Assembly: GCF_900183975.1 (NCBI RefSeq)
Contig: NZ_LT853882.1
Coordinates: forward strand, 434,001-498,000
Source: Xanthomonas fragariae
GTDB lineage: Bacteria > Pseudomonadota > Gammaproteobacteria > Xanthomonadales > Xanthomonadaceae
Reading direction: 5' to 3'
Length of the DNA: 64,000 nucleotides
In this document: positions 45,168-58,051 of the stretch, piece after piece
Position numbering within the stretch: position 1 is the stretch's first letter
How the letters are laid out: each line of letters opens with the position of its first letter
Position numbers and translations under genes: made by a program
Notes under the pieces: generated by a model
The model's input: only the letters and a program-made list of their open reading frames with translations
Databases searched by the model: none
What the model was told of the DNA's origin: nothing

Positions 45168-46430
45168 CTAGGTAGACGCGTACCGGGCCAAGAAGAGATT
45201 GTCACGATCGAGGGGCAGCGTTACGCCGTTCTCGACCACGTCAACAACAAGTCCACTTGCTATCAAGGCACGATCTATCGCCGCAGAGGCAGTGGCGAGA
45301 TCGTGGTTGCGCATCGAGGCACCGAGGGCGCTGTCAATGACATTCTCACCGACACGACCATGATCACCTCGCGGACCAATCCGCAAGCAGCCGATGCGTT
45401 GGCGCTGACCAAAAACGCTTTGGGCTACGCAAAGGAGCTCGGCAAGGAAGAGGGGCGCACCCCCGAAGTCACCGTCACCGGCCATTCCCTCGGCGGTGCA
45501 CTTGCCCAGGTCTCCGCGCACCATTACGACCTCAAATGCGAAACCTTCAATTCGTATGGCGCAGTCAGCCTGAGCTATCGGATTCTGGAAGGCGGCAATA
45601 GCGTAATCAACCATGTGATGGCGTCGGACCCGGTGAGCGCAGCGTCGCCGCATTTCGGACAGGTTCGCATTTACGCCAAGCCAGATGAAATCGCCACGTT
45701 GAGTGGTGCCGGCTACAGCAACAGCAAGGCCAACTTCCTGATCCCGGACTATCCGTTGGTGGCTGCCGGCGCCTCGCTGGGCGCGCACAAGCTGGGCAAC
45801 TTCCTTGGCGAGCATTCGGCGCTCACCGATCCCAACGCGCGACCGCTTGCCGAGCAGAACAAGCGCATGATCGACGAATACCGGGGCGATGTGGATGGGC
45901 TCCGTACCGGCACCACCATCCTGACGCGCAGCGCGCGGGGTCTCGGCCAGGACGCCATCGACGCCTTCCGCGGCCCGCTTGCACCGGGCGAACCCGCCAA
46001 GCGCGACGCGCGCGAGCACGGCAACGAACACACCTTCCTGCGCATCGATCAGCCAGGGCATGTGGGTAATGCGTTGTTTCAGGATGCACAACGTGGCGTG
46101 CACGCGCAGGACGCACGTGTAGGACGCACTCCCGACCAGCACAGTGCCCAGTTGTCCGGCGCGCTGGCATCGGAAATGCACTCGGTGGGCGGCAAGCGCA
46201 TCGACGAGGTGGTGATGAGCCCCGATGCATCGCGCACCTTCGCCGTGCAGGGTCGCGCGGATGATCCGGCCCAGTTGCGTGTTAACGTGGAGACGATAAC
46301 CGCCATCAACATCTCGCTAGAGCAGAGCAGTCAGCGCGTCGCTGAAAATGTAGCGTGTCAGTCGGCGGCGTTGGAACCGCAGCAATCACAGCCCCAGCAG
46401 CAACAGCAGTGTGCACGCTTGATGTGCTGA

Positions 46431-46893
46431 GCGCGTTCACCCGTTAGCGGCGTAAGGGTGTTGCTTTACCCGGCCAGCATCCGGCACGCGGCGTTGCTTC
46501 AATCCTCACAACTGTCTCCATCGAAGGTTGCAAAAAAACGCCGGCCAGCCCGGCGTTCTCCCTTCCATCGCGCAATGATGCGTTGATTTCCTGCTGCAAT
46601 CGCACAACAACGCGCTGACGAAAATATCGCGCGCTCGCTATGTCAGCATTTTTTCGCTTTGAGAATCGCCAAGGGCGCCGACGTCAGCCAGCTCAATCAA
46701 CCTGAGCCGGTCATTTGGTCGCGCAGCTCAACCCGGCCCGCCGCCGCCCGCCATCCCACGCACAACACCGCCTCCCCTCCCATTCCATACGCACCCGTAG
46801 CGAGGTGTGCCAATAGGTGCGTGCGGTACACTTGGGGGTTCACGAATTCACGATGTCGACACACCCGCGGGGTGTGTCCCCCCGGGAGCGCTA
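46431..46893. other. Intergenic region upstream of aceE
   Basis: No gene seen. At 46532-46557 lies a hairpin AACGCCGG ... CCGGCGTT with seven A before it, so the T tract is on the minus strand; on the plus strand it may still end transcription of the effector gene. AT-richer DNA (46610-46660, including GTCAGCATTTTTTCGC) precedes aceE and could hold its promoter. Confidence 0.45.
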
Positions 46894-49581
46894 ATGAACT
46901 GGTTGAACGAAGTGCTGCACAACGATCCGAACCCGCTTGAGACGCAGGAGTGGCTCGAATCGATCAAGGCCGTCATCGACGTCGAAGGCCCGGAGCGCGC
47001 CCATCAGCTGCTGGAAGGCATGGTCGAACAGACCCGCCGCGCCGGCGCTTACCTGCCGTTTTCGCCCACTACCGAGTACGTTAACACCATCGCACCGGTC
47101 AACGAGGCCAAGCACCCCGGCGACTCGGCGCTGGAGTGGAAGATCCGCTCGATCATCCGCTGGAACGCCATGGCCACGGTCGTGCGGGCAAACCGCAAGC
47201 CGGGCGACCTGGGTGGCCACATCGCCTCGTTCGCTTCCAGCGCAACGCTCTACGATGTGGGCTTCAACCACTTCTGGCGTGCGCCCTCGGACACGCATCC
47301 GGGCGACCTGCTGTTCATTCAGGGTCACAGCGCCCCGGGCATCTACGCACGCGCCTTCCTCGAAGGCCGCATCACCCAGGCCCAGCTGGACAACTTCCGT
47401 ATGGAAGTGGACGGTCAGGGCATCTCGTCCTACCCGCACCCGTGGCTGATGCCCGAGTTCTGGCAGACCCCCACCGTGTCGATGGGCCTGGGCCCGCTGG
47501 CCGCCATCTACCAGGCGCAGTTCATGCGCTACCTGGAAAACCGCGGCCTGATTGAGAAGTCCGACCGCAAGGTGTGGTGCTTCATCGGCGACGGTGAGAG
47601 CGACGAGCCGGAAACCCTCGGCGCCATCGCACTGGCCGGCCGCGAAGGCCTCGATAACTTGATCTTCGTGGTCAACTGCAACCTGCAGCGCCTGGACGGC
47701 CCGGTGCGCGGCAACGGCAAGATCATCCAGGAACTGGAAGGAGTCTTCCGTGGCGGCGGCTGGAATGTCATCAAGCTGCTCTGGGGCGGTTACTGGGACG
47801 CCCTGCTGGCCAAGGACAGCGACGGCGTGCTGCGCAAGCTGATGATGGAAACCGTCGACGGCGAATACCAGAACTGCAAGGCCTTCGGCGGCGCCTACAC
47901 GCGCGCCAACTTCTTCGGTAAATATCCGGAGACCGCGGCCATGGTCGCTGGCCTGTCCGACGAAGACATCTGGCGCCTGAACCGTGGCGGCCACGATCCG
48001 CACAAGGTGTACGCCGCCTACCACCAGGCCGTGAACACCACCGGCATGCCCACCGTGATCCTGGCCAAGACCGTCAAGGGCTACGGCATGGGTTCGGCAG
48101 GTGAGGCGCTCAACCCCACCCACCAGACCAAAAAGCTGGACGACGCGGCGGTCAAGCACTTCCGCGACCGCTTCAACATCCCGGTCACCGACGCACAGCT
48201 GGAAGACGGCCAGGTGCCGTTCTACCACCCCGGCGAAGATTCCCCGGAAGTGCAGTACCTCAAGGAACGCCGCAATGTGCTGGGCGGCTTCCTGCCTTCG
48301 CGCCGTCCCAAGGCCAGCAAGTCGTTTGTGGCGCCCACGCTCGACAAGTTCGAGCGCCTGCTCAAAGACAGCGGCGAGCGCAGCTATTCCACCACCATGT
48401 CGTTCGTGCAGAGCCTCAACATCGCCCTGCGCGACAAGGAACTTGGCCCGCGTATCGTGCCGATCGTGGCCGATGAAGCGCGTACGTTCGGCATGGAAGG
48501 GATGTTCCGCCAGATCGGCATCTACGCCCCGTTCGGCCAGAAGTACAAGCCGGTCGATGCCGACCAGTTGATGTACTACCGCGAAGACCAGACCGGCCAG
48601 GTGCTGCAGCAGGGCATCAGCGAGCCGGGCGCAATCGCCTCCTGGATGGCCGCCGGCACCAGCTACTCGGTGTCCGATGTACCGATGCTGCCGTTCTACA
48701 TCTACTACTCCATGTTCGGTTTCCAACGCGTGGGCGATATCGCCTGGCAGGCAGCGGACATGCGCACGCGTGGCTTCCTGCTCGGCGGCACCGCCGGCCG
48801 CACCACGCTCAATGGCGAAGGCCTGCAGCACGAAGACGGCTTCAGCCAGGTCATCGCCGGCTCCATCCCCAACGTGCGCAGCTTTGATCCGACCTTCGGC
48901 TTCGAAGTCACCGTCATCATGCAGCATGGCATGAAGGCGATGATGGAAGACCAGATTGACGAGTACTACTACATCACCCTGATGAACGAAAACTACGCCC
49001 ACCCCGGCATGCCGGACGGCGCAGCCGAGGGCATCATCAAGGGCATGTATCTGCTCAAAGACGCCGGCAAGCCTAAGAAGGGCGAACTGCGCGTGCAGCT
49101 GCTGGGCAGCGGCACCATCCTGCGCGAGGCCATTGCCGCGGCCGAGCTGCTAGACAAGGACTTCGGCGTCACCGCCGACATCTGGTCCTGCCCCAGCCTC
49201 AACGAAGTGCGCCGCGACGGCTACGCCGTGGAACGCTGGAACCGCCTGCACCCGGAAGCCGAACAGCGCAAGCCCTACGTCACCCAGCTGCTGGAAGGCC
49301 GCCAGGGCCCGGCGATTGCCGCAACCGACTACGTACGCGCCTTCGCCGACCAGATCCGCGCCTTCGTCCCGATGACCTACACCGTCCTCGGCACGGATGG
49401 CTTCGGCCGCTCGGACACGCGTGCGAATCTGCGTCGCTTCTTTGAGGTCGATCGCTACTACATCGCGCATGCGGCGATTGCCGCGCTTGCTAAGGATGGG
49501 AAGATGACGGGTAAGGATGTGGCGCGGGCGATTGAGCAGTACGGGATTGATCCTGAGAAGGGGAATCCGGTTGGGGTTTGA
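46894..49581 (+). CDS. aceE: Pyruvate dehydrogenase E1 component, homodimeric type
   Basis: Decarboxylates pyruvate and acetylates lipoyl-E2 in the pyruvate dehydrogenase complex. 895 residues from ATG 46894 (MNWLNEVLHNDPNPLETQEW), close to E. coli AceE. Thiamine diphosphate site GDGESDEPETLGAIALAGREGLDNLIFVVNCNLQRLDGPVRGNG near 230-265, and GYGMGSAGEALNPTHQTKKL. Frame opens earlier at 46807 but CGGGAGCG lies just before 46894. Terminator at 49592 follows; no E2 gene is next, so aceE is separated from its partners by an accessory island. Confidence 0.96.
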   Translation: MNWLNEVLHNDPNPLETQEWLESIKAVIDVEGPERAHQLLEGMVEQTRRAGAYLPFSPTTEYVNTIAPVNEAKHPGDSALEWKIRSIIRWNAMATVVRANRKPGDLGGHIASFASSATLYDVGFNHFWRAPSDTHPGDLLFIQGHSAPGIYARAFLEGRITQAQLDNFRMEVDGQGISSYPHPWLMPEFWQTPTVSMGLGPLAAIYQAQFMRYLENRGLIEKSDRKVWCFIGDGESDEPETLGAIALAGREGLDNLIFVVNCNLQRLDGPVRGNGKIIQELEGVFRGGGWNVIKLLWGGYWDALLAKDSDGVLRKLMMETVDGEYQNCKAFGGAYTRANFFGKYPETAAMVAGLSDEDIWRLNRGGHDPHKVYAAYHQAVNTTGMPTVILAKTVKGYGMGSAGEALNPTHQTKKLDDAAVKHFRDRFNIPVTDAQLEDGQVPFYHPGEDSPEVQYLKERRNVLGGFLPSRRPKASKSFVAPTLDKFERLLKDSGERSYSTTMSFVQSLNIALRDKELGPRIVPIVADEARTFGMEGMFRQIGIYAPFGQKYKPVDADQLMYYREDQTGQVLQQGISEPGAIASWMAAGTSYSVSDVPMLPFYIYYSMFGFQRVGDIAWQAADMRTRGFLLGGTAGRTTLNGEGLQHEDGFSQVIAGSIPNVRSFDPTFGFEVTVIMQHGMKAMMEDQIDEYYYITLMNENYAHPGMPDGAAEGIIKGMYLLKDAGKPKKGELRVQLLGSGTILREAIAAAELLDKDFGVTADIWSCPSLNEVRRDGYAVERWNRLHPEAEQRKPYVTQLLEGRQGPAIAATDYVRAFADQIRAFVPMTYTVLGTDGFGRSDTRANLRRFFEVDRYYIAHAAIAALAKDGKMTGKDVARAIEQYGIDPEKGNPVGV

Positions 49582-49591
49582 TTGTAAAAAG

Positions 49592-49616
49592 AAGGCGCCT
49601 TAGGGCGCCTTTTTTA
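49592..49616 (+). terminator. aceE terminator
   Basis: AAGGCGCC, 4-nt loop, GGCGCCTT then TTTTA. It lies 10 bp after the aceE stop and marks the left boundary of the AT-richer island. Confidence 0.88.
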
Positions 49617-49913
49617 TAGCTAGTGGCGATTTAAAGGTTTACAGGAGAATGTAGGATGGGTTTAGTGCCGTGCCGCAGGAGGTATGACGTGGCGTTTGAG
49701 TTGCAGTCGCGAGTTACCCAGGTAAATAAGATTGTATGCTGCCAATTGCTAGAGGTTAGGTAAGAAACATAATTTCTCTGCTCCAATCAGTGTCGGATTG
49801 CACACTTCAAGCGAAGTGGCGGTTTGGTCAGTGGTCCTCTGCAGTGCTTATGGGCTATCCTTTACTGATCGAACCATATCCATTTGAGCCACAACACAGG
49901 AAGTCGGCAGCGT
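49617..49913. promoter_or_regulatory. AT-rich region upstream of the ATPase/HNH pair
   Basis: 297 bp without a gene, visibly richer in A and T than the chromosome on either side. It should hold the promoter for the downstream pair; I cannot assign specific boxes. Confidence 0.4.
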
Positions 49914-51458
49914 ATGGTGATGCACTTTTGCAAAGTCGCTAAAGATTCATATAATCCGTCAGATATGAGGTCGTGCTTTACTCTCAGAGAGGATAACTGG
50001 GACGATTACTCTTACAAGACAATGTTTCACCTTGCCTATCACGATCAAGATGGTCAAAAAACTGAGATTGGGGAAGTGAAGATTGGCTTCGCCGGTCAGC
50101 AGTCTGGACGAACAACCGACAGTATTCCCCAGAGATTTACGTCCCTTCCCAGTGAATACTTCTCGATCGGTCAGAGTACTGAGTACTACAGCAAACTTGT
50201 AGCAATTCAAGGGTATGAGAGAGCATGGCTGGAGAGCTTGGGTGACTTGGCGGTCATGCCTGCCAAGCGCTCCGTGGCATATGGTGAGAAGGTTTTCATT
50301 GACTCATTGACGCGAACAGTCAGTGAATCCGTAATCGAACAACAATTCGCTAGAATTGCCGCGGGTCTTCCCGCGCTGACATCTTTTGATTTCGAGTTCT
50401 CCCGAGAGTTAAGTTATCAGCTCTCTGAAGTCCGTCTTAGGTTCAAAGTCTCTCCCGAATCAAAGCCTCCGTCGAACATTCATGTGCTAATTGGAAGGAA
50501 TGGTGTCGGCAAAACAAAAATTCTCAATGGGATGATTGGGGCTGCCTTAAGGACCGCCGACAACGTATCGGCTACAGGCTGCTTCATTGAGCACCGCGAT
50601 TGTTATCAATCGCAGATAATAAATGAAAAATACTTCAGTGGTGTTATCTCTGTTTCGTTTAGTGCCTTCGATCCTTTTAACCCACCACCCAATCAAAACG
50701 ATCGAGAAGGGGGCGTGCGTTACTCTTATATTGGGCTGAAAGACAACTCCGTATCCGGGGTCAACGCGGAGCCCAAGGGGATGCAGACTCTCGCTGACGA
50801 ATTTTACCGAAGCCTGTTAGTCTGTTCGAGTCAAAACAAGAAGAGGGCTCAATGGCTAGAGTGCATATCAATTTTGGAGTCGGACCCCAACTTTGCCGAG
50901 ATGGGACTCGCTCGACTGTTTGAAGTCAAAAACCAGACTTCTGAAGTGATTACAACGCTCTTCATGTTGAAGATAAGTTCCGGTCACGCCATCGTGCTGC
51001 TCACACTGACTAAGCTAATTGAATCAGTGGAAGAGAAGACGCTCGTTCTAATCGACGAGCCAGAGAGCCACCTTCACCCACCCCTGCTGTCAGCCTTCGT
51101 GCGAGCGCTATCTCATCTGCTTACGACGGAGAATGCGGTCGCCATCGTTGCTACCCACTCCCCAGTATTGCTCCAAGAAGTCCCAAGAGACTGCGCATGG
51201 ATACTATCGCGCTCCAGACTGGTGAGCTCTGCCGATCGGCCAGCAATCGAGACGTTTGGTGGAAATTTGGGTGTTCTCACACGAGAAGCATTCAAGTTTG
51301 AGGTATCAAAGTCGGGCTTCCACTCGATGCTCGCAACCTCAGTCGCGAGCGGCAAAGGATTTGATGAGCTGATGGCTGAATACGAAGGTAAGGTGGCCAT
51401 GGAAGGTCAGGCCATTTTGATGTCGATGATCGGCTCTAGGGATGGAGGTAATGTCTAA
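49914..51458 (+). CDS. AAA/ABC-type ATPase, PtuA-like (putative defence system)
   Basis: 514 residues from ATG 49914 (AGGAAG 9 bp upstream; a TTG at 49884 would add ten). Residues 1-190 form an N-terminal region of no recognised family. Then an OLD/ABC-like ATPase: Walker A IGRNGVGKTKIL near 193-204, Walker B VLIDEPESHLHPP and H-loop ATHSPVLLQEVP in the last third. The C-terminus is short. It ends in a TAATG overlap with an HNH nuclease gene. ATPase plus HNH is the layout of Septu (PtuA/PtuB) anti-phage systems, but classical PtuA has its Walker A close to the N-terminus. Low GC relative to neighbours suggests transfer. No frameshifts. Confidence 0.78.
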   Translation: MVMHFCKVAKDSYNPSDMRSCFTLREDNWDDYSYKTMFHLAYHDQDGQKTEIGEVKIGFAGQQSGRTTDSIPQRFTSLPSEYFSIGQSTEYYSKLVAIQGYERAWLESLGDLAVMPAKRSVAYGEKVFIDSLTRTVSESVIEQQFARIAAGLPALTSFDFEFSRELSYQLSEVRLRFKVSPESKPPSNIHVLIGRNGVGKTKILNGMIGAALRTADNVSATGCFIEHRDCYQSQIINEKYFSGVISVSFSAFDPFNPPPNQNDREGGVRYSYIGLKDNSVSGVNAEPKGMQTLADEFYRSLLVCSSQNKKRAQWLECISILESDPNFAEMGLARLFEVKNQTSEVITTLFMLKISSGHAIVLLTLTKLIESVEEKTLVLIDEPESHLHPPLLSAFVRALSHLLTTENAVAIVATHSPVLLQEVPRDCAWILSRSRLVSSADRPAIETFGGNLGVLTREAFKFEVSKSGFHSMLATSVASGKGFDELMAEYEGKVAMEGQAILMSMIGSRDGGNV

Positions 51459-52318
51459 TGCGTCAAGTTCAAATGTACAGCGAGTCATTCACAGGCGTGT
51501 ATGCTAGTTGCGTGGGTGGCGTGGGAAATCCTGCAAAATTGGCGGACTATAATGCGGCGATGCCAATGATGCAGGGCGAGGCTATCATTTATGAGCGTCT
51601 TGCGAGACAGTCGGCGATCTATCAGATTCAAGGCCAAAAAACGAGATTGGATGACATTGTACGAGGAGCTCTGACAAGAAGGGATCTCACGGATCTTTAT
51701 GAGGTTCAGATGGTGGGCTTGGCAAAGCACGCCCGTTTTCATTATGACAAAATATTGCTCTCTCCCCCGCACAAGAAATGCCCGTACTGCAGCCTTGGCC
51801 AAGCTACTACCTTAGATCACTATCTTCCAAAATCCAGGTTTCCTCAGTTCTCTGTTGCTGTATGTAACTTGGTTCCGTGCTGTAAGGACTGTCAATCTAA
51901 AAAGGGGAAAAAGTATGCTGCGACTAAATCCAGCCAGACGCTTCACCCTTACTTTGATGATCCCACATACTTTCAGGTTAACTGGGTTTATGGCCATGTC
52001 GTTCGGGCAAGAGCAATTACAGTAGAATTCTACGTAAAGCCACCTTCAGGCTGGCCAATGAATATGCAGCAGCGAGTGGATGCGCACTTTAGTTCGCACC
52101 GGCTCGCGGAGCGCTACGGAATTGAGGCTGCGAGTGAACTGGCGTCGGTTCGCGAGATATATGCAGATTTACGCGCATCTGGTGATTTTAACCAGATTAG
52201 GATGTTGCTACAGCGGCAGGCGAAAGGACACATAGCTAACTGCCCCAATTCGTGGCAAGCAGCGTTCTATTCTGCTCTTGCAGCAGACAACTGGTACTGC
52301 AACTCTCCGGTCGTGTAG
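51458..52318 (+). CDS. HNH endonuclease, PtuB-like
   Basis: 286 residues; the ATG shares one base with the TAA of the ATPase gene. Zinc-type HNH module: CPYC (108-111), the catalytic DHYLPKSRFPQF (120-131), N137 in VCNLVPCC, and CKDC (142-145) followed by QSKKG. The rest is helical with no recognised domain. In Septu the PtuB nuclease is held and activated by PtuA to cut nucleic acid on infection. Here the flanking 106 and 140 residues are longer than in small PtuB proteins. Function inferred from architecture. Confidence 0.78.
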   Translation: MRQVQMYSESFTGVYASCVGGVGNPAKLADYNAAMPMMQGEAIIYERLARQSAIYQIQGQKTRLDDIVRGALTRRDLTDLYEVQMVGLAKHARFHYDKILLSPPHKKCPYCSLGQATTLDHYLPKSRFPQFSVAVCNLVPCCKDCQSKKGKKYAATKSSQTLHPYFDDPTYFQVNWVYGHVVRARAITVEFYVKPPSGWPMNMQQRVDAHFSSHRLAERYGIEAASELASVREIYADLRASGDFNQIRMLLQRQAKGHIANCPNSWQAAFYSALAADNWYCNSPVV

Positions 52319-52334
52319 TCGATTGACGGCCAGA

Positions 52335-52439
52335 AAGTAGTGGGGTCAGGTTCTAAGGTATCCCCAAATTTTACGAATAACGGGGTCAGGTTCACTTATT
52401 GTACCAAGTAAAGTAACGGGGTCAGGTTCACGTATCAAT
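52335..52439 (+). repeat. Three direct GGGGTCAGGTT repeats
   Basis: GGGGTCAGGTT occurs at about 52342, 52382 and 52418, the last two preceded by AACG/AAC and followed by CAC. The third copy extends to a 26-bp sequence (52414-52439) identical to 55237-55262. The motif also flanks the transposase remnant at 55258, so these look like ends recognised by that transposase family. Confidence 0.7.
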
Positions 52440-52472
52440 CCGACGTCCCCCCGCCCTGAGTAGCGGCCGGGT

Positions 52473-53341
52473 TTAGAGTCCGGGCCTGATGATATCGGTG
52501 TTTGCCAGATGTTGGGCATAAGCGGCCGGCGTCATGCCGCCGATTGCTTTCTTGGGTCGGTCCTCGTTGTATTCGCGTCGCCAACGTTCGATCTCGGTGC
52601 GTGCATGCAGCAGTGTTGGGAACCAGTGCTCGTTGAGGCATTCGTCGCGTAGTCGGCCGTTGAACGATTCGACGTAGGCGTTCTGGTTCGGTTTGCCCGG
52701 CTGGATGAGCCGTAGCTGCACACCACGGGCGTGCGCCCAGGCGACCATCGCCCTGCCGCAAAACTCCTTGCCGTTGTGCCCCGAGGGCAGGCTTCGCGCT
52801 CGGTACGGATGACTTGCGGCAAACCGCGACTGTCCGCCAGCCGATCCAGCACCCGCGTCACGCCGTGGCCGGAGATCGCGCGTTCCACCTCGATGGCGAC
52901 CGCTTCGTGGGTTGCGTCGTCCACGATCACCAGACACTTGATCGCCCTGCCTTCGGCAGTGCGGTCGAACACGAAGTCCATCGACCACACCTGGTTGGCT
53001 CGCAATGGCCGCAGCAGCGGCTGACGCTCGCCCACTGGCACCTTCTTGCGCCTGCGGCGCCGGACCTGCATCTGCTGTTCGCGGTACAACCGCTCCACGC
53101 GCTTGTAGTTCACGATGCGCCCTTCCTGTCGCAGTTTGAGATAGATCATCCCCACGCCATAGCGGCGATGGCGATGCGCCAGCGCAAGAATGCGCTCGCG
53201 TAGCTCAACGTTGCGGTCTTCGCGCGGGCAGTAGCGCAGCGCACTGGCGCTCATGCCGATCGCCGCCAAGGCGCGACGCTCGCTGGCACCGCACCCGATC
53301 CACTCGCGCACCAGCGCACGACGCGCGGGTGCGCTCACCAC
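52473..53341 (-). pseudogene. IS407-group OrfB transposase, frameshifted
   Basis: Reads ARRALVREWIGCGASERRAL, then [21 protein letters not shown] (first Asp) and [22 protein letters not shown]. Near 52785 the frame breaks: instead of TDHGKEF the DNA encodes [14 protein letters not shown] because of extra sequence, exactly as in copy 1. The third frame then supplies [17 protein letters not shown] and ends at 52473. The DDE core is split, so this copy probably needs a transposase supplied elsewhere. Confidence 0.85.
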
Positions 53342-53604
53342 TTTTTTCGCAGCGCATCCTTGATCAGGTCGTTCTCGAACACCTGCTCGGCCAGCAACTT
53401 CTTCAGCCGCGCGTTTTCGGACTCAAGGTCCTTGAGTCGCTTGGCATCGGGCACGCTCATCCCGCCGAACTTGCTGCGCCACAGGGAGTACGAGGCCTCA
53501 CTGAAGCCATGGCGCCGGCACAGGTCTTTGATCGCCACGCCTGCTTCGGCCTCACGCAGGAAGCCAATGATCTGCTCTTCGGTAAAGCGCTTCTTCACGT
53601 CCAA
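53335..53604 (-). CDS. IS407-group OrfA transposase
   Basis: 89 residues from a TTG at 53604 following CGAGGAGA. Helix-turn-helix (EEQIIGFLREAEAGVAIKDLCRRHGFSEASYSLWRSKFGG) and a leucine zipper (LKDLESENARLKKLLAEQVF). Intact, unlike copy 1. OrfB follows at once. Confidence 0.88.
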   Translation of the reverse strand: MDVKKRFTEEQIIGFLREAEAGVAIKDLCRRHGFSEASYSLWRSKFGGMSVPDAKRLKDLESENARLKKLLAEQVFENDLIKDALRKKW

Positions 53605-53666
53605 TCTCCTCGGGGTAGGGAATTGGACTCCAAACTGAGGCGCTACTCAAAATTGGGGGGACGTCG

Positions 53667-54768
53667 CCACTACGCCAACGATGCCGCCAATCGCACCTGT
53701 GACCAGCAAGCCCGGGCCAGACTCCACGCCTAGCGCTGCGCCCATGGTGCCGCCAAGCGCGGCTCCACCGGCCGCGCCCAGATTGCGTGTGGTGTAGCGA
53801 GTGACCTCTGCATCGGCTGCGGTGCTATTGCCCTGCGCGTCGAGTCGTTGGGTGTTTTTTGTGGTGACGCCCAGGTCGTAGACTGCCGCCGCCGCGCCCA
53901 CAACGCCCAGCCCACGTATTGTTCCAGTAGCGAGCCTGCGTGATGCCGCTGCTTCTGCGCTGAGCGCTGTTTCCGCAATGCTTGCGGCTGGCGCATCGAG
54001 CCCGGTCGGCGCACGGACCATGCCCGATGCACTGAGTTCTGCTGAAGGTCGAAAGTGTGTTTCCTGTAATTCAAAGCTTTCCGCGAACTCACGTGAGAAC
54101 GTGACATTCTTGATTTCCGTCGCGATGCTCGCGGGCGTTACAAAGATGCCTTTTGGCGCAGTCTGGATAAAGTGCGTTTGTACTTCCGGCAGCACAGCGC
54201 CTGCGCCACCTTGTGCGTACAGTGCCTGCAACTTGGAAATCGGTTGCCCACCCAGTGAAGTGACATTGGGGTTGTTCAGGACAGCCGGTACTTCAACCTG
54301 GCCGAAGACACGTTCGAGGTTGGCAGCCGAAGCAACGACTTTGATATCACCACGTAGCGAGCTTGCGAACTCGTGGGAGGCTTCGCCCCATAGGCATTTT
54401 GACAAGGAGGTGGGGCTATCAGCTGGAACATTTGGGTCACCAAACAGAAATGCATTTGCAGAAAGCCTCGCTGTGGTTGAGGGCTGCCCAAGATCTTCAA
54501 AAATAGCTCTGGCTTTTTTCTCGATTGAATTGCGAACATCGTCGTCGTCTAGAAATTTCGCGCGTGGGGTGTCATTGATTATGGGTAAGCCGGTCTCTTT
54601 AGATAATTAGACCGAAAGTGTTCCCGAAGAAACCTCCCCGATTCTCCCGCTATAGAGGATGCCGCCGTCCTTCGTTGCTTTAGCAGAGTAGCGCTTTGCG
54701 ATACTCGCTATCTCGTCCAAGCTTCTAGAATTTTTTATGAGCTCTACATCGCTGCTGTAGTCGTTCAT
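53667..54768 (-). pseudogene. Toxin/effector of second immunity pair, nonsense codon and IS truncation
   Basis: ATG 54768 overlaps the stop of the upstream gene (ATGA). It reads MNDYSSDVELIKNSRSLDEI ... KDGGILYSGRIGEVSSGTLSV, then a TAA at 54607-54609. The same frame continues without pause: LSKETGLPIINDTPRAKFLDD, IEKKARAIFEDLGQPSTTARLS, a Ser/Ala/Thr stretch, and a glycine-rich hydrophobic segment (GAAGGAALGGTMGAALGVES; GLLVTGAIGGIVGVVA), until the IS3 element at 53666. Any C-terminal targeting domain is gone. The YSGR...IINDTPR pattern suggests an N-terminal enzymatic toxin domain, but I do not recognise it. By analogy with the locus at 44 kb it may be a type IV effector. Confidence 0.65.
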
Positions 54769-55196
54769 TCGTGCAGACTCGACGCATCGTTCGATGTGAC
54801 CAAAGCCCAATTCTGCTCAAAGATAACTTTTCCAATAAATGACGACTTTTTCGTCTCCATCAGAGAAGAAGGCCTATCTTCAAATTGCAAGCCTGCTACA
54901 ATAAGCTTTTTGACTAAGACTTTGACCGTCTCCAGTTGGTCATTCGTGAATGACCTGGTGGAAAATGATGGGAGTGGCATTCCAACCTCTATTCTGTTTA
55001 GGTATCCAAAGCTAATAATATGGATGCTAAAATGGACATCGTCTTCCAGCCACTTTGGTTCTAATTCCCCAAAAACTTCCGCTTGGTCGATTTCGACAGC
55101 GAATGTTTCATGGCCGAGCTCATCAAACCCACGGATTCCTCCAGAAAAACGTGCGCGGCCTTCGGGGAAGCTTATCCATTCAAATGTCTCTGACAT
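54765..55196 (-). CDS. Putative immunity protein of second pair
   Basis: 143 residues from ATG 55196 (MSETFEWISFPEGRARFSGG), intact, acidic, cytoplasmic-looking (no signal). Moderately AT-rich. No family recognised; the compact beta-rich pattern (RARFSGGIRGFDELGHETFAVEI) and its ATGA overlap with the toxin-like gene suggest an immunity protein. Retained while its toxin is broken, as at the 44-kb locus. Confidence 0.55.
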   Translation of the reverse strand: MSETFEWISFPEGRARFSGGIRGFDELGHETFAVEIDQAEVFGELEPKWLEDDVHFSIHIISFGYLNRIEVGMPLPSFSTRSFTNDQLETVKVLVKKLIVAGLQFEDRPSSLMETKKSSFIGKVIFEQNWALVTSNDASSLHE

Positions 55197-55236
55197 CTCA
55201 ATTCCCTCTTTCTGTTGAATATAATTTGGTGCATAA

Positions 55237-56060
55237 TAACGGGGTCAGGTTCACGTATCAATTGACGGCGCTCGGCTTGCGTGGCCGATGAGCGGGCCTC
55301 ACGCCCGCAAAGCGGCGGGTTTTGGTTTCGACCATCGCGCGAAGGCATCGTGGCTCAGGACTCGCTGCTGCTTGAGATGAAGGCCGATGTCGGCGAGCAG
55401 GTCGTCGGACAGTGCTTCATCGAGCAAGGCACGGTAGGCGTTGGATTATTCAATTGGGTCGTTGCCAAGCGCAAGCCAACCCGGATGTGGCGCCAGTGCC
55501 GAGTATCTGCGCTGACCCAGATTGGCTGGGCAGCTGGACCAGCGATACGCCATTGGGTCGTCGGTCATGCGAGCACGCGCCGGGTTGAGTTCAATGTAGC
55601 GATAGCAGCGACGTACGTAGTCAGCACTGTTCACCAGGCAGGCTTTGTAGCGCCCTTCCCATAGCGTGCCGGTACGCCCGTGGCGGCCATTGAACAGCGC
55701 CACGTAGTTGCGCCCAAGCCGCTGCATCATCTGCCCGATCCGTCCTTTTGCAGGTGGCATGGCAAGCAAGTGCACATGTTTGTCCATCAACACATAGGCA
55801 TGCAACTGGCAGCCTGTGGCGTGTAGTGCCTCATGCAGCAGATGCAGGTAGCGCAATCGGTCGCCATCATCCAGAAAGCACGGCAAGCGGTTGTTCCCGC
55901 GCTGGACGATGTGCTGCGGCATTCCGGGAATGTCGAAGCGCGCGAGTCTGGCCCTATCGCAAGACTCGCAGCGAGGCGTTGATGCTGATATCGAGGAGAC
56001 CTCCCGAAAGTCGAGGCCGTAGCCTGAAATTTGCGTAGGAAGTGAACCTGACCCCGTTAT
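55237..56060 (-). mobile_element. REP-associated tyrosine transposase (IS200-like) remnant with flanking repeats
   Basis: The transposase remnant is flanked by oppositely oriented copies of AACGGGGTCAGGTTCAC: at 55238-55254 and, inverted, at 56041-56058. Such ends and gene are typical of RAYT units in Xanthomonas. Confidence 0.7.
55258..55922 (-). pseudogene. RAYT (Y1/IS200-like) transposase, broken
   Basis: The first 158 residues read MPQHIVQRGNNRLPCFLDDGDR, with the HUH motif as DKHVHLLAMPP and catalytic Tyr region GRYKACLVNSADYVRRCYRYIELNPARARM. A TAA at 55446 interrupts (NDPIE*), after which the same frame resumes with SNAYRALLDEALSDDLLADI. A one-base loss near 55331 shifts to a last frame (MVETKTRRFAGVRPAHRPRK) ending at 55258 within the flanking repeat. 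The true start may be a few codons further (ARLARFDIPG upstream). Confidence 0.85.
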
Positions 56061-56242
56061 CCCCGTTAGCCGACACTATGGCCAGGAGAGACGCCGCTGT
56101 GTCGGATCGATTGATGTGGGGTCTCATGACTCCAAATGCAGCTGCCAGATTGCGTCAGGTCAGGAACGCGCCTGCACACTATGCAGCACCGCTGACGTCT
56201 TTCGTGTGCCACCGCTCTGATTCTGCGGATCACTGGTTTCCC

Positions 56243-58051
56243 ATGCAGCCATTTCCTCACAACGATATGCAGTCGCCGCATTCGGCCACCGCGCAGCTGC
56301 GCTGGCCGTTGGATTGGTTGCGCCGGCAACTGCGTGCCAACGATTTGTGGCTCATCGGTTTGGCAGCGCTGGTGGGATTGATCGCTGCCGCGCTGATGGT
56401 GCTGCAGGCCGGCATCGCTCATGGGTTGCAGGCATGTCTGTACTGGCTCGGCCCGGATGCGCGGCTCAGCACGGCTGAATCGATCACGCCCGGCCAGTTG
56501 TTGGTGTTGCCGTTGGGAGGATTATTGGTCGGTCTGGTGGCGTTGATGGCGCGTCGGCGCAAGCGGCCGCTGGTGGACGCGGTGGAAGCCAATGCGTTGC
56601 ATGGCGGACGCATGTCGATGCGCGACAACCTGATCGTTGCGGTGCAGACCTTGTTATCCAACGGCGTTGGTGCGTTGGTGCGTCGGTGGGGCTGGAGGCG
56701 AAGTATACCCAGATGGGGTCGGGGGCAGGGTCGCAACTCGGTCGTGTATTGAGGGTACGGCGTTCCGATCTACGCACCCTGGTCGGTGCAGGTGCGGCAG
56801 GCGCGATCGCAGCCGCGTTCGGTGCGCCGCTGGCGGGTGCGTTCTATGCGTTCGAGATCGTGATCGGTGCCTACACGCCGTCGGCATTGGCACCGGTCGC
56901 TGCTGCAGCATTGGCAGGCGCATTTATGGCGAACACGTTGGGGGCGGCGCCGTATTCGCTCCCCGCTGCGGTGGCCTACCAATTGCTGCCGCGAGACTAT
57001 GCGATCTACATCGCGCTCGGTTTTATCTGCGCCTTGATCGGCATCGCGGTGATGCGTCTGGTTGCCGGCATCGAGCGCGGTGTGGGCCGATTCAATCTGC
57101 CGGTCTGGGGTCGCCCTGTCATCGGTGGGTTGTTGTTGATTCCGATGGCGATGTATTTGCCGCAGGTGCTGTCGTCGGGGCATGCCGCGTTGCATCTGGA
57201 TCTGACCAGCAGCAGCACGTTGCAGGTGCTCGCCACTTTGTTGGTGCTCAAGTGCATAGCGTCTGGTATTTCGCTGGGTTTCGGTTTCCGTGGCGGTTTG
57301 TTTTTCGCCTCGTTGTTTATGGGTTCGTTGGTGGGCAGCCTGTTTGCGTTAAGCCTGAATCTGCTGATGGGCGCTGCGGCAGTGGACACCACCAGTGCGT
57401 CGCTGGTGGGCATGGCTGCACTAGCTGCGGCGATTGTCGGTGCGCCGATGACGATGACCATGCTGATCCTGGAGGGCACGCACGATTTCGTACTGGCCAG
57501 CGCGGTGATGGTTGCGGTGTTGGTCGCCAACACCGTGGTGCGCCAGGTGTTCGGTTATTCCTTTTCCACCTGGCGGCTGCATCTGCGTGGCGAAAATATC
57601 AGCAGCGCACGCGATGTAGGCTGGGTGCGCAATCTTTCGGCCGGCAAGATGATGCGCAAGGATGCCAATCACACGGCGCACGACACCAGCGTCAGCGCGT
57701 TTCGCAAGCGTTTCCCGCTGGGCTCGACCCAGCGCGTGGTGCTCGAAGACGCCACCGGGCATTATGCCGGCGTGGTGCCGCTGGCGGTGCTGTATGCAGA
57801 CAACGTGCAACTGGATGCACCGGTCAGCGACTATGCCAAAGCATCGTGATGCAGCGCTGCTGGCGGACACCGACATCGTGGCGATCATGAAGGTCTTCGA
57901 TGCAACGCAGGCCGATGAGTTGGCAGTGATCGATACCGAACGCAATGTGCTTGGCGTGTTGTCCGAAGGCTTCGTACGCAAGCGCTATGCCGAAGAGCTG
58001 GAAAAGCGCGAACGCGAGTTGATGGGCGAGCGTTCGGCTGACGAGGAGTGA
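56243..58051 (+). pseudogene. ClC-type chloride channel with CBS-like tail, two frameshifts
   Basis: N-terminal frame from ATG 56243 to about 56665: membrane helices (LWLIGLAALVGLIAAALMVL; ITPGQLLVLPLGGLLVGLVALM). An extra 8 bp (GCGTTGGT repeated, 56659-56678) throws the frame; the next frame should follow VGASVGLEAKYTQMGSGAGS. It continues through FGAPLAGAFYAFEI, FGFRGGLFFASLFMGS and TMLILEGTHDF to TGA 57847. There GCCAAAGCAT has one A too many; without it the protein continues HRDAALLADTDIVAIMKVFD to 58051 (CBS-like). ClcB-like chloride transporter in origin. Confidence 0.88.

Follow-up and report, generated by a model that had tools for sequence, protein, structure and literature searches.

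A stretch of 64,000 nucleotides from the chromosome of Xanthomonas fragariae (assembly GCF_900183975.1, contig NZ_LT853882.1, positions 434,001 to 498,000 of the forward strand; hereafter the window) carries two overlapping genes, an ABC-type ATPase gene followed by a zinc-HNH gene. The pair is probably a two-gene anti-phage module of the PtuAB class (Septu-like), predicted from its sequence, belonging to the Ea59-Ea31 / PDC-M01 family and located at a variable site behind aceE. The computed support comprises the order and overlap of the genes, their intact motifs, their strict pairing and joint inheritance, the predicted folds, the homology to two genes of phage lambda, and the presence of defence genes of other types at the same site in several relatives. 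The new element is an additional chromosomal member; the family, as well as the overlap of its calls with those of Septu, is already on record.

Characteristics of the two genes

The features of the pair are the following (coordinates of the window):

49914..51458, + strand: ABC-type ATPase gene, Ea59 / PDC-M01A family, 514 aa; N-terminal domain (about residues 1-150), PtuA-like ATPase core (about 154-459) and C-terminal helices to residue 514
49914..50363, + strand: part coding for the N-terminal domain of the ATPase, about residues 1-150, ahead of the core
50493..50516, + strand: Walker A motif GRNGVGKT, ATPase residues 194-201
51458..52318, + strand: predicted zinc-HNH nuclease gene, Ea31 / PDC-M01B family, 286 aa, PtuB-like over its whole length
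51779..51892, + strand: zinc core of the HNH protein, C108-x2-C111, D120-H121, N137, C142-x2-C145

Both reading frames are intact, and the genes share one base (TAATG), the HNH gene starting at ATG 51458. The longest ATPase frame opens at TTG 49884 (524-aa frame). The likely start is ATG 49914, since AGGAAG ends 10 bases upstream of it and relatives align from there; a second ATG is located at 49920. Further ATPase motifs are the signature SSGH at residue 355, Walker B DEPE at 381 and THSP at 414. A sequence-only reading of this DNA had previously described overlapping ATPase and zinc-HNH genes in a Septu-like layout, lying in an AT-richer block and with about 190 residues ahead of Walker A. 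The coordinates were correct, the motifs were present, and the position of Walker A agreed with this description. The G+C content was 0.49 for the pair, 0.62 on the left side, 0.635 in the insertion sequence (IS) on the right and 0.51 in the toxin-like block beyond.

Family assignment

The ATPase matched the PADLOC model PDC-M01A with E 3.9e-194 (residues 13-520 of the 524-aa frame, model positions 1-506 of 510) and the HNH protein matched PDC-M01B with E 4.5e-88 (residues 1-283 of 286, model positions 1-276 of 282); these full-length matches ruled out chance frames. On the basis of these comparisons, the pair is a member of the catalogued candidate anti-phage family PDC-M01, and so not undescribed. 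The earlier suggestion of a divergent Septu type or an undescribed system was therefore right as to the Septu-like layout and wrong as to the second part. In the available passages of the literature naming PDC-M01, this family is reported only as a prediction.

The PADLOC PtuA1 model PDLC00282 also covered the ATPase in full length (E 1.2e-173), and a survey gives 41 cases in which a PDC-M01 call duplicates one of Septu (available part of PMC11811056). A Walker A/B ATPase and an HNH partner whose H and N residues are in register, as in Septu, were both found, and the accessible text on Septu EcB88 gives residues equivalent to K200, D381, H121 and N137 as required. The nearest solved folds of the two predicted structures, detailed below, were those of PtuA and PtuB. 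These data would suit a divergent but otherwise normal PtuA/PtuB system, set apart solely by its additional N-terminal domain, a reading considered unlikely in view of the following results. The HNH protein matched 56 PADLOC models, and the best 25 of these were all PDC-M01B, with no PtuB model among them. The ATPase scored 47.5 bits against the cut-off of 500 bits of the NCBIfam PtuA model, which was made for retron Ec78, and the HNH protein did not reach the curated PtuB profiles TIGR02646 (16.5/52.15 bits) and NF041761 (13.5/150); the NCBIfam names PtuA and PtuB follow the retron Ec78 effectors, and the window pair is far under their cut-offs. The ATPase core is not placed at or near the N-terminus, as Walker A is found at 194-201 versus about residue 92 in retron Ec78 PtuA and lysine 43 in Septu EcB88. 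From the Walker A lysine to the Walker B aspartate there are 181 residues, versus 273 in Septu EcB88.

Predicted structures and the N-terminal domain

The predicted fold of the ATPase matched PtuA over about residues 142-459, and the solved chain 8ee4_F, from its residue 1, aligned from residue 158 of the model. The HNH model superposed on PtuB across the whole protein. Its flanks are thus PtuB-like, which ruled out novel flanking domains and did not sustain the earlier view that long flanks separate this protein from the standard one.

The N-terminal domain of about 150 residues is real and family-wide, including lambda Ea59. The extension had been called unusual: it exists, but it is ordinary for the family. 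In the model it showed strands between residues 4 and 86 and helices at 89-149. Residues F5, L24, W29, D31, F38, F75, G86, Y92, D111, S131 and R134 were invariant in 20 sequences, including the lambda-like locus L081, and four of them (W29, D31, Y92 and R134) were identical in all 73 pairs of the set described below. A Pfam scan of the whole ATPase gave a single match before residue 150 (E 0.1). The PDB profile search with the N-terminal domain gave nothing better than E 0.1, its best match being the COE1 transcription factor at that value, taken as chance. As regards an ordinary PtuA insertion, no PtuA match of the N-terminus was obtained in this profile search or in the fold comparison of the whole model, the matches of the latter being filled by the ATPase core; no fold search with the N-terminal domain by itself was made. 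In a Foldseek search against viral models the best rows were mostly ABC-type ATPases of unrelated viruses, lambda Ea59 not appearing in the best 50, and nothing was concluded from this search.

Pairing and joint inheritance

The genome search located relatives of the ATPase in 310 stretches. The best 80 of the 310 were kept, and pairing was therefore tested chiefly in closer relatives, while the IMG/VR set reaches further. The HNH genes of the loci were detected with a profile made from relatives of the window HNH protein. An HNH gene was located directly downstream of the ATPase gene in 79 of these best 80 loci; at the sole exception, L051, the contig stops 286 bases after the ATPase frame. 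The HNH gene was cut by the contig end in L071 and split over two frames in L089, both counted among the 79. Nine of the 80 loci were lambda copies; eight showed full identity, and the ninth 95% identity across the last 400 residues. The intergenic gap ranged from -17 to +13 nt and 62 of 81 pairs (the 79 loci, lambda and one faecal phage record) overlapped. The co-conservation on which the sequence-only reading depended was thus borne out. Among 39 IMG/VR loci, the ATPase was clear in 38, with the HNH gene adjoining in 34 of the 38; at the remaining four, no more than 3 bases separate the ATPase frame from the contig end. The other locus, L189, had a weak HNH match and no clear ATPase.

A set of 73 pairs was obtained by dropping the lambda copies and L051 and including the window, lambda and the faecal phage record. 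In this set the distances of the ATPases and of the HNH proteins were correlated (0.805), a value reached in none of 2000 permutations (largest 0.151). This shows that the two genes are jointly inherited, a result that adjacent genes can give without physical contact. All 73 pairs were identical at K200, T201, D381 and E382 of the ATPase and at C108, C111, D120, H121, N137, C142 and C145 of the HNH protein.

Relationship to the lambda Ea59-Ea31 pair

The lambda pair (NC_001416, 26973-24509) shows the same order as the window pair, its genes overlap by four bases and it adjoins the attachment site. The window ATPase was 43.9% identical to Ea59 over 98%, and the two have the N-terminal domain in common. 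The window HNH protein was 33.5% identical to Ea31 over 73% (tblastn) and alignable to it end to end. Lambda Ea59 and Ea31 matched PDC-M01A and PDC-M01B with E 3.9e-201 and 5.8e-113, respectively. Because the lambda proteins themselves score on these models and share order and identity with the window proteins, the window pair is, as judged by sequence comparison, a chromosomal Ea59-Ea31 pair. According to the available part of PMC10695390, ea59 and ea31 are non-essential for lambda, which fits cargo and not core phage genes. No link of ea59 or ea31 to defence was found in the open-access literature searched, from which unpublished status can therefore not be claimed. No known non-defence function turned up for the homologues either, the lambda pair being phage genes without assigned function.

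Copies of ea59 identical to that of lambda were observed at L069, L071, L072, L074-L077 and L079, on contigs no larger than lambda in assemblies that include Streptomyces, Oceanobacillus and Leeuwenhoekiella. Such copies in unrelated public assemblies are probably sequencing-control contamination.

Distribution of the family

The Ea59-Ea31 / PDC-M01 family is patchy in its distribution. Of 50,697 phage records, 24 had a relative of the ATPase, almost all of these being lambda or lambda-like, and 20 had a relative of the HNH protein. Relatives were detected on 55 plasmid records out of 72,556, at least five of the 15 matches listed being lambda-sized. Of 5426 complete E. coli genomes, 91 have the lambda type, with 80% or more of the pair covered in 68 of them. 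Among 150 relative genomes, 27 gave a match of some kind at E <= 0.001, mainly to the shared ATPase motif; the only close copy was that of the window's genome, with distant relatives in G017 and G002 (23-32% identity, two pieces) and a distant partial match in G018. Within the phylum, 4 of 299 genomes matched the family model at E <= 1e-60, including the window's genome. Relatives occur in proteobacteria, cyanobacteria and one planctomycete metagenome-assembled genome.

Site behind aceE

The following features delimit the site in the window and describe its content in five relatives:

46894..49581, + strand: aceE (identified by eye as the gene of pyruvate dehydrogenase E1, start taken at ATG), left edge of the variable site, outside the system
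52441..53667, - strand: insertion sequence (IS3-type by eye), a short way downstream of the pair, outside the system
L140, behind aceE: cytosine methylase, GHKL-type ATPase and weak restriction-enzyme match
L141, behind aceE: two cytosine methylases and an HNH gene
L145, behind aceE: UG5-nitrilase reverse transcriptase, E 5.4e-291
L148, behind aceE: retron II-A reverse transcriptase and NDT partner
L150, behind aceE: AriA-like and AriB-like pair

The 3' part of aceE was present in all 35 same-genus genomes. In 19 of 19 relative loci, alignment to the window was lost at the aceE stop or shortly past it (49581 to 49614). In a sample of 12 of the 34 relatives (19 kb each), no pair-like DNA was found behind aceE, and the downstream content differed from that of the window. 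Of 80 frames at these sites 22 were scanned, 20 of them against PADLOC, picked by length, low G+C content and nearness to aceE. Clear defence-type genes (restriction-modification, DRT, retron and PARIS-like) were found in five of the 12 relatives. Weaker ATPase-type matches were obtained in L139, L143, L146 and L147, and no defence-type match among the frames scanned in L142, L144 and L149. Judged from the few relatives sampled, in which only this site was scanned, without a matched control, the aceE 3' site resembles a defence hotspot. The aceE, IS and toxin neighbours and the defence-type location given in the sequence-only reading were confirmed.

An Rfam scan of 49400-52600 gave no retron RNA and no reverse transcriptase frame was seen by eye in 46000-58000, which ruled out a retron identity of the pair. 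The only Rfam result was a sub-threshold PrrB_RsmZ match at 49470-49618, mostly within aceE (23.5 of 44 bits), taken as chance.

The IS has 22 near-full-length copies in the genome, the window copy included. Beyond it lies a cut, toxin-like frame (named by eye, 53647-54405); the right end of the IS, 53667, is where this frame begins matching relatives L143 and L146, so the IS probably cut the toxin-like gene. In the interval from the HNH gene to the IS there are three spaced copies of GGGGTCAGGTTC (52342, 52382 and 52418), and one more, at 55241, is located near a REP-type transposase-like frame; the frame 55446-55922 resembles by eye a REP-associated tyrosine transposase. Eleven of the 12 relatives, L149 being the exception, have DNA matching parts of 55235-56070 no more than 19 kb from aceE. 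A chloride-channel-like protein (by eye) extends over two frames, 56042-56752 and 56686-57849, perhaps by a frameshift. Upstream of aceE, the frame 45303-46430 combines a GHSLGG motif of the lipase type with a tail rich in glutamine, and resembles by eye a secreted inter-bacterial effector.

Neighbours of the family in other genomes

Near and far frames were compared in 18 of 49 eligible loci; 25 loci (every other one) were first taken, and seven of them were dropped (L082, L100, L104, L107, L109, L111 and L114). Any far frame that also counted as near was taken out. At E <= 1e-30 the 108 near frames matched 121 PADLOC models and the 97 far frames 26, figures that indicate a trend and not a gene count, since PADLOC models overlap and the far set also has restriction and Gabija-type genes. 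Recurrent near frames were type I restriction genes (three HsdR and three HsdM), integrases (three) and Hachiman HamB (two).

At three marine gammaproteobacterial loci (L053, L062 and L082), frames of 1071, 395-446 and 692-696 aa were observed directly upstream of the pair. Their lengths correspond to those of a type I restriction set, and type I restriction models were matched in a scan of frames covering two of these loci, L053 and L062, among others.

Proposed function

That the module derives from a phage, with an original job in the phage cycle (recombination, host takeover or homing-like cutting), and was left on the chromosome, is quite improbable. The position of the lambda pair beside the attachment site and the 39 IMG/VR loci with a relative would agree with it, but the family is widespread outside phages (cyanobacteria, a planctomycete, plasmids), by eye no phage structural genes adjoin the window pair, unrelated defence genes occupy the same aceE site in several relatives, and ea59 and ea31 are dispensable for lambda. 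Systems of an ABC-ATPase and a nuclease such as Wadjet act on plasmids. A nuclease system directed against plasmids or conjugation instead of phages has this precedent, and the window data do not tell which invader is concerned, but it is very improbable given the 55 plasmid records with a relative, at least five of them lambda-sized, and carriage by temperate phages, which favours phage-phage conflict.

For an anti-phage module of the PtuAB class, the ATPase would form an ATP-bound oligomer restraining the HNH subunit. Infection would upset this restrained state, the family-specific N-terminal domain possibly being the sensor or docking part, and the released HNH subunit would cut nucleic acid, tRNA or DNA. 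Such cutting would halt phage growth at the expense of the cell. In the available text of PMC11555353, tRNA-Tyr is degraded by retron Eco7 PtuAB and the Septu of E. coli ATCC 25922 is reported to act on nicked DNA. Cleavage of tRNA is also described for Septu EcB88.

A bolder proposal, which we hold only tentatively and with somewhat more doubt than belief, is that lambda ea59-ea31 is a working PtuAB-class immune module that guards lysogens from other phages, that its N-terminal domain is a new infection sensor, and that the window pair is the same machine in an aceE defence hotspot. If so, two unexplained products of the best-studied temperate phage would become a defence system directly testable in K-12, and PDC-M01, a catalogued candidate family known from predictions, would gain a model member. 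The N-terminal domain, which lies outside the solved Septu and retron PtuA chains in the comparison made, would be the place to seek the trigger, and the site behind aceE a compact place to seek more defence genes in the genus.

Comparison with known systems

PARIS AriA and OLD-family ATPases are unlike the window ATPase, whose partner is an HNH protein and not AriB or a fused Toprim domain. The retron Ec78/Eco7 PtuAB effector is alike in fold, giving the top match to the ATPase core and one of the top matches to the HNH protein, and differs in its N-terminus. Septu is alike in its two genes for an ABC-ATPase and a zinc-HNH protein, in the predicted PtuA-like core and PtuB-like whole-protein fold, and in the H-N spacing of 16 (H121/N137 in the window HNH protein, H75/N91 in Septu). 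It is unlike in that the window ATPase has an extra domain, about 150 residues long, ahead of the core and a shorter distance between Walker A and Walker B, and in that the window sequences are under the curated PtuA/PtuB cut-offs of NCBIfam. With respect to PADLOC PDC-M01A and PDC-M01B, both window proteins are full-length members and no difference was found. The lambda Ea59-Ea31 pair, of the same family, is phage-borne and lies beside the attachment site, whereas the window copy is chromosomal and lies behind aceE.
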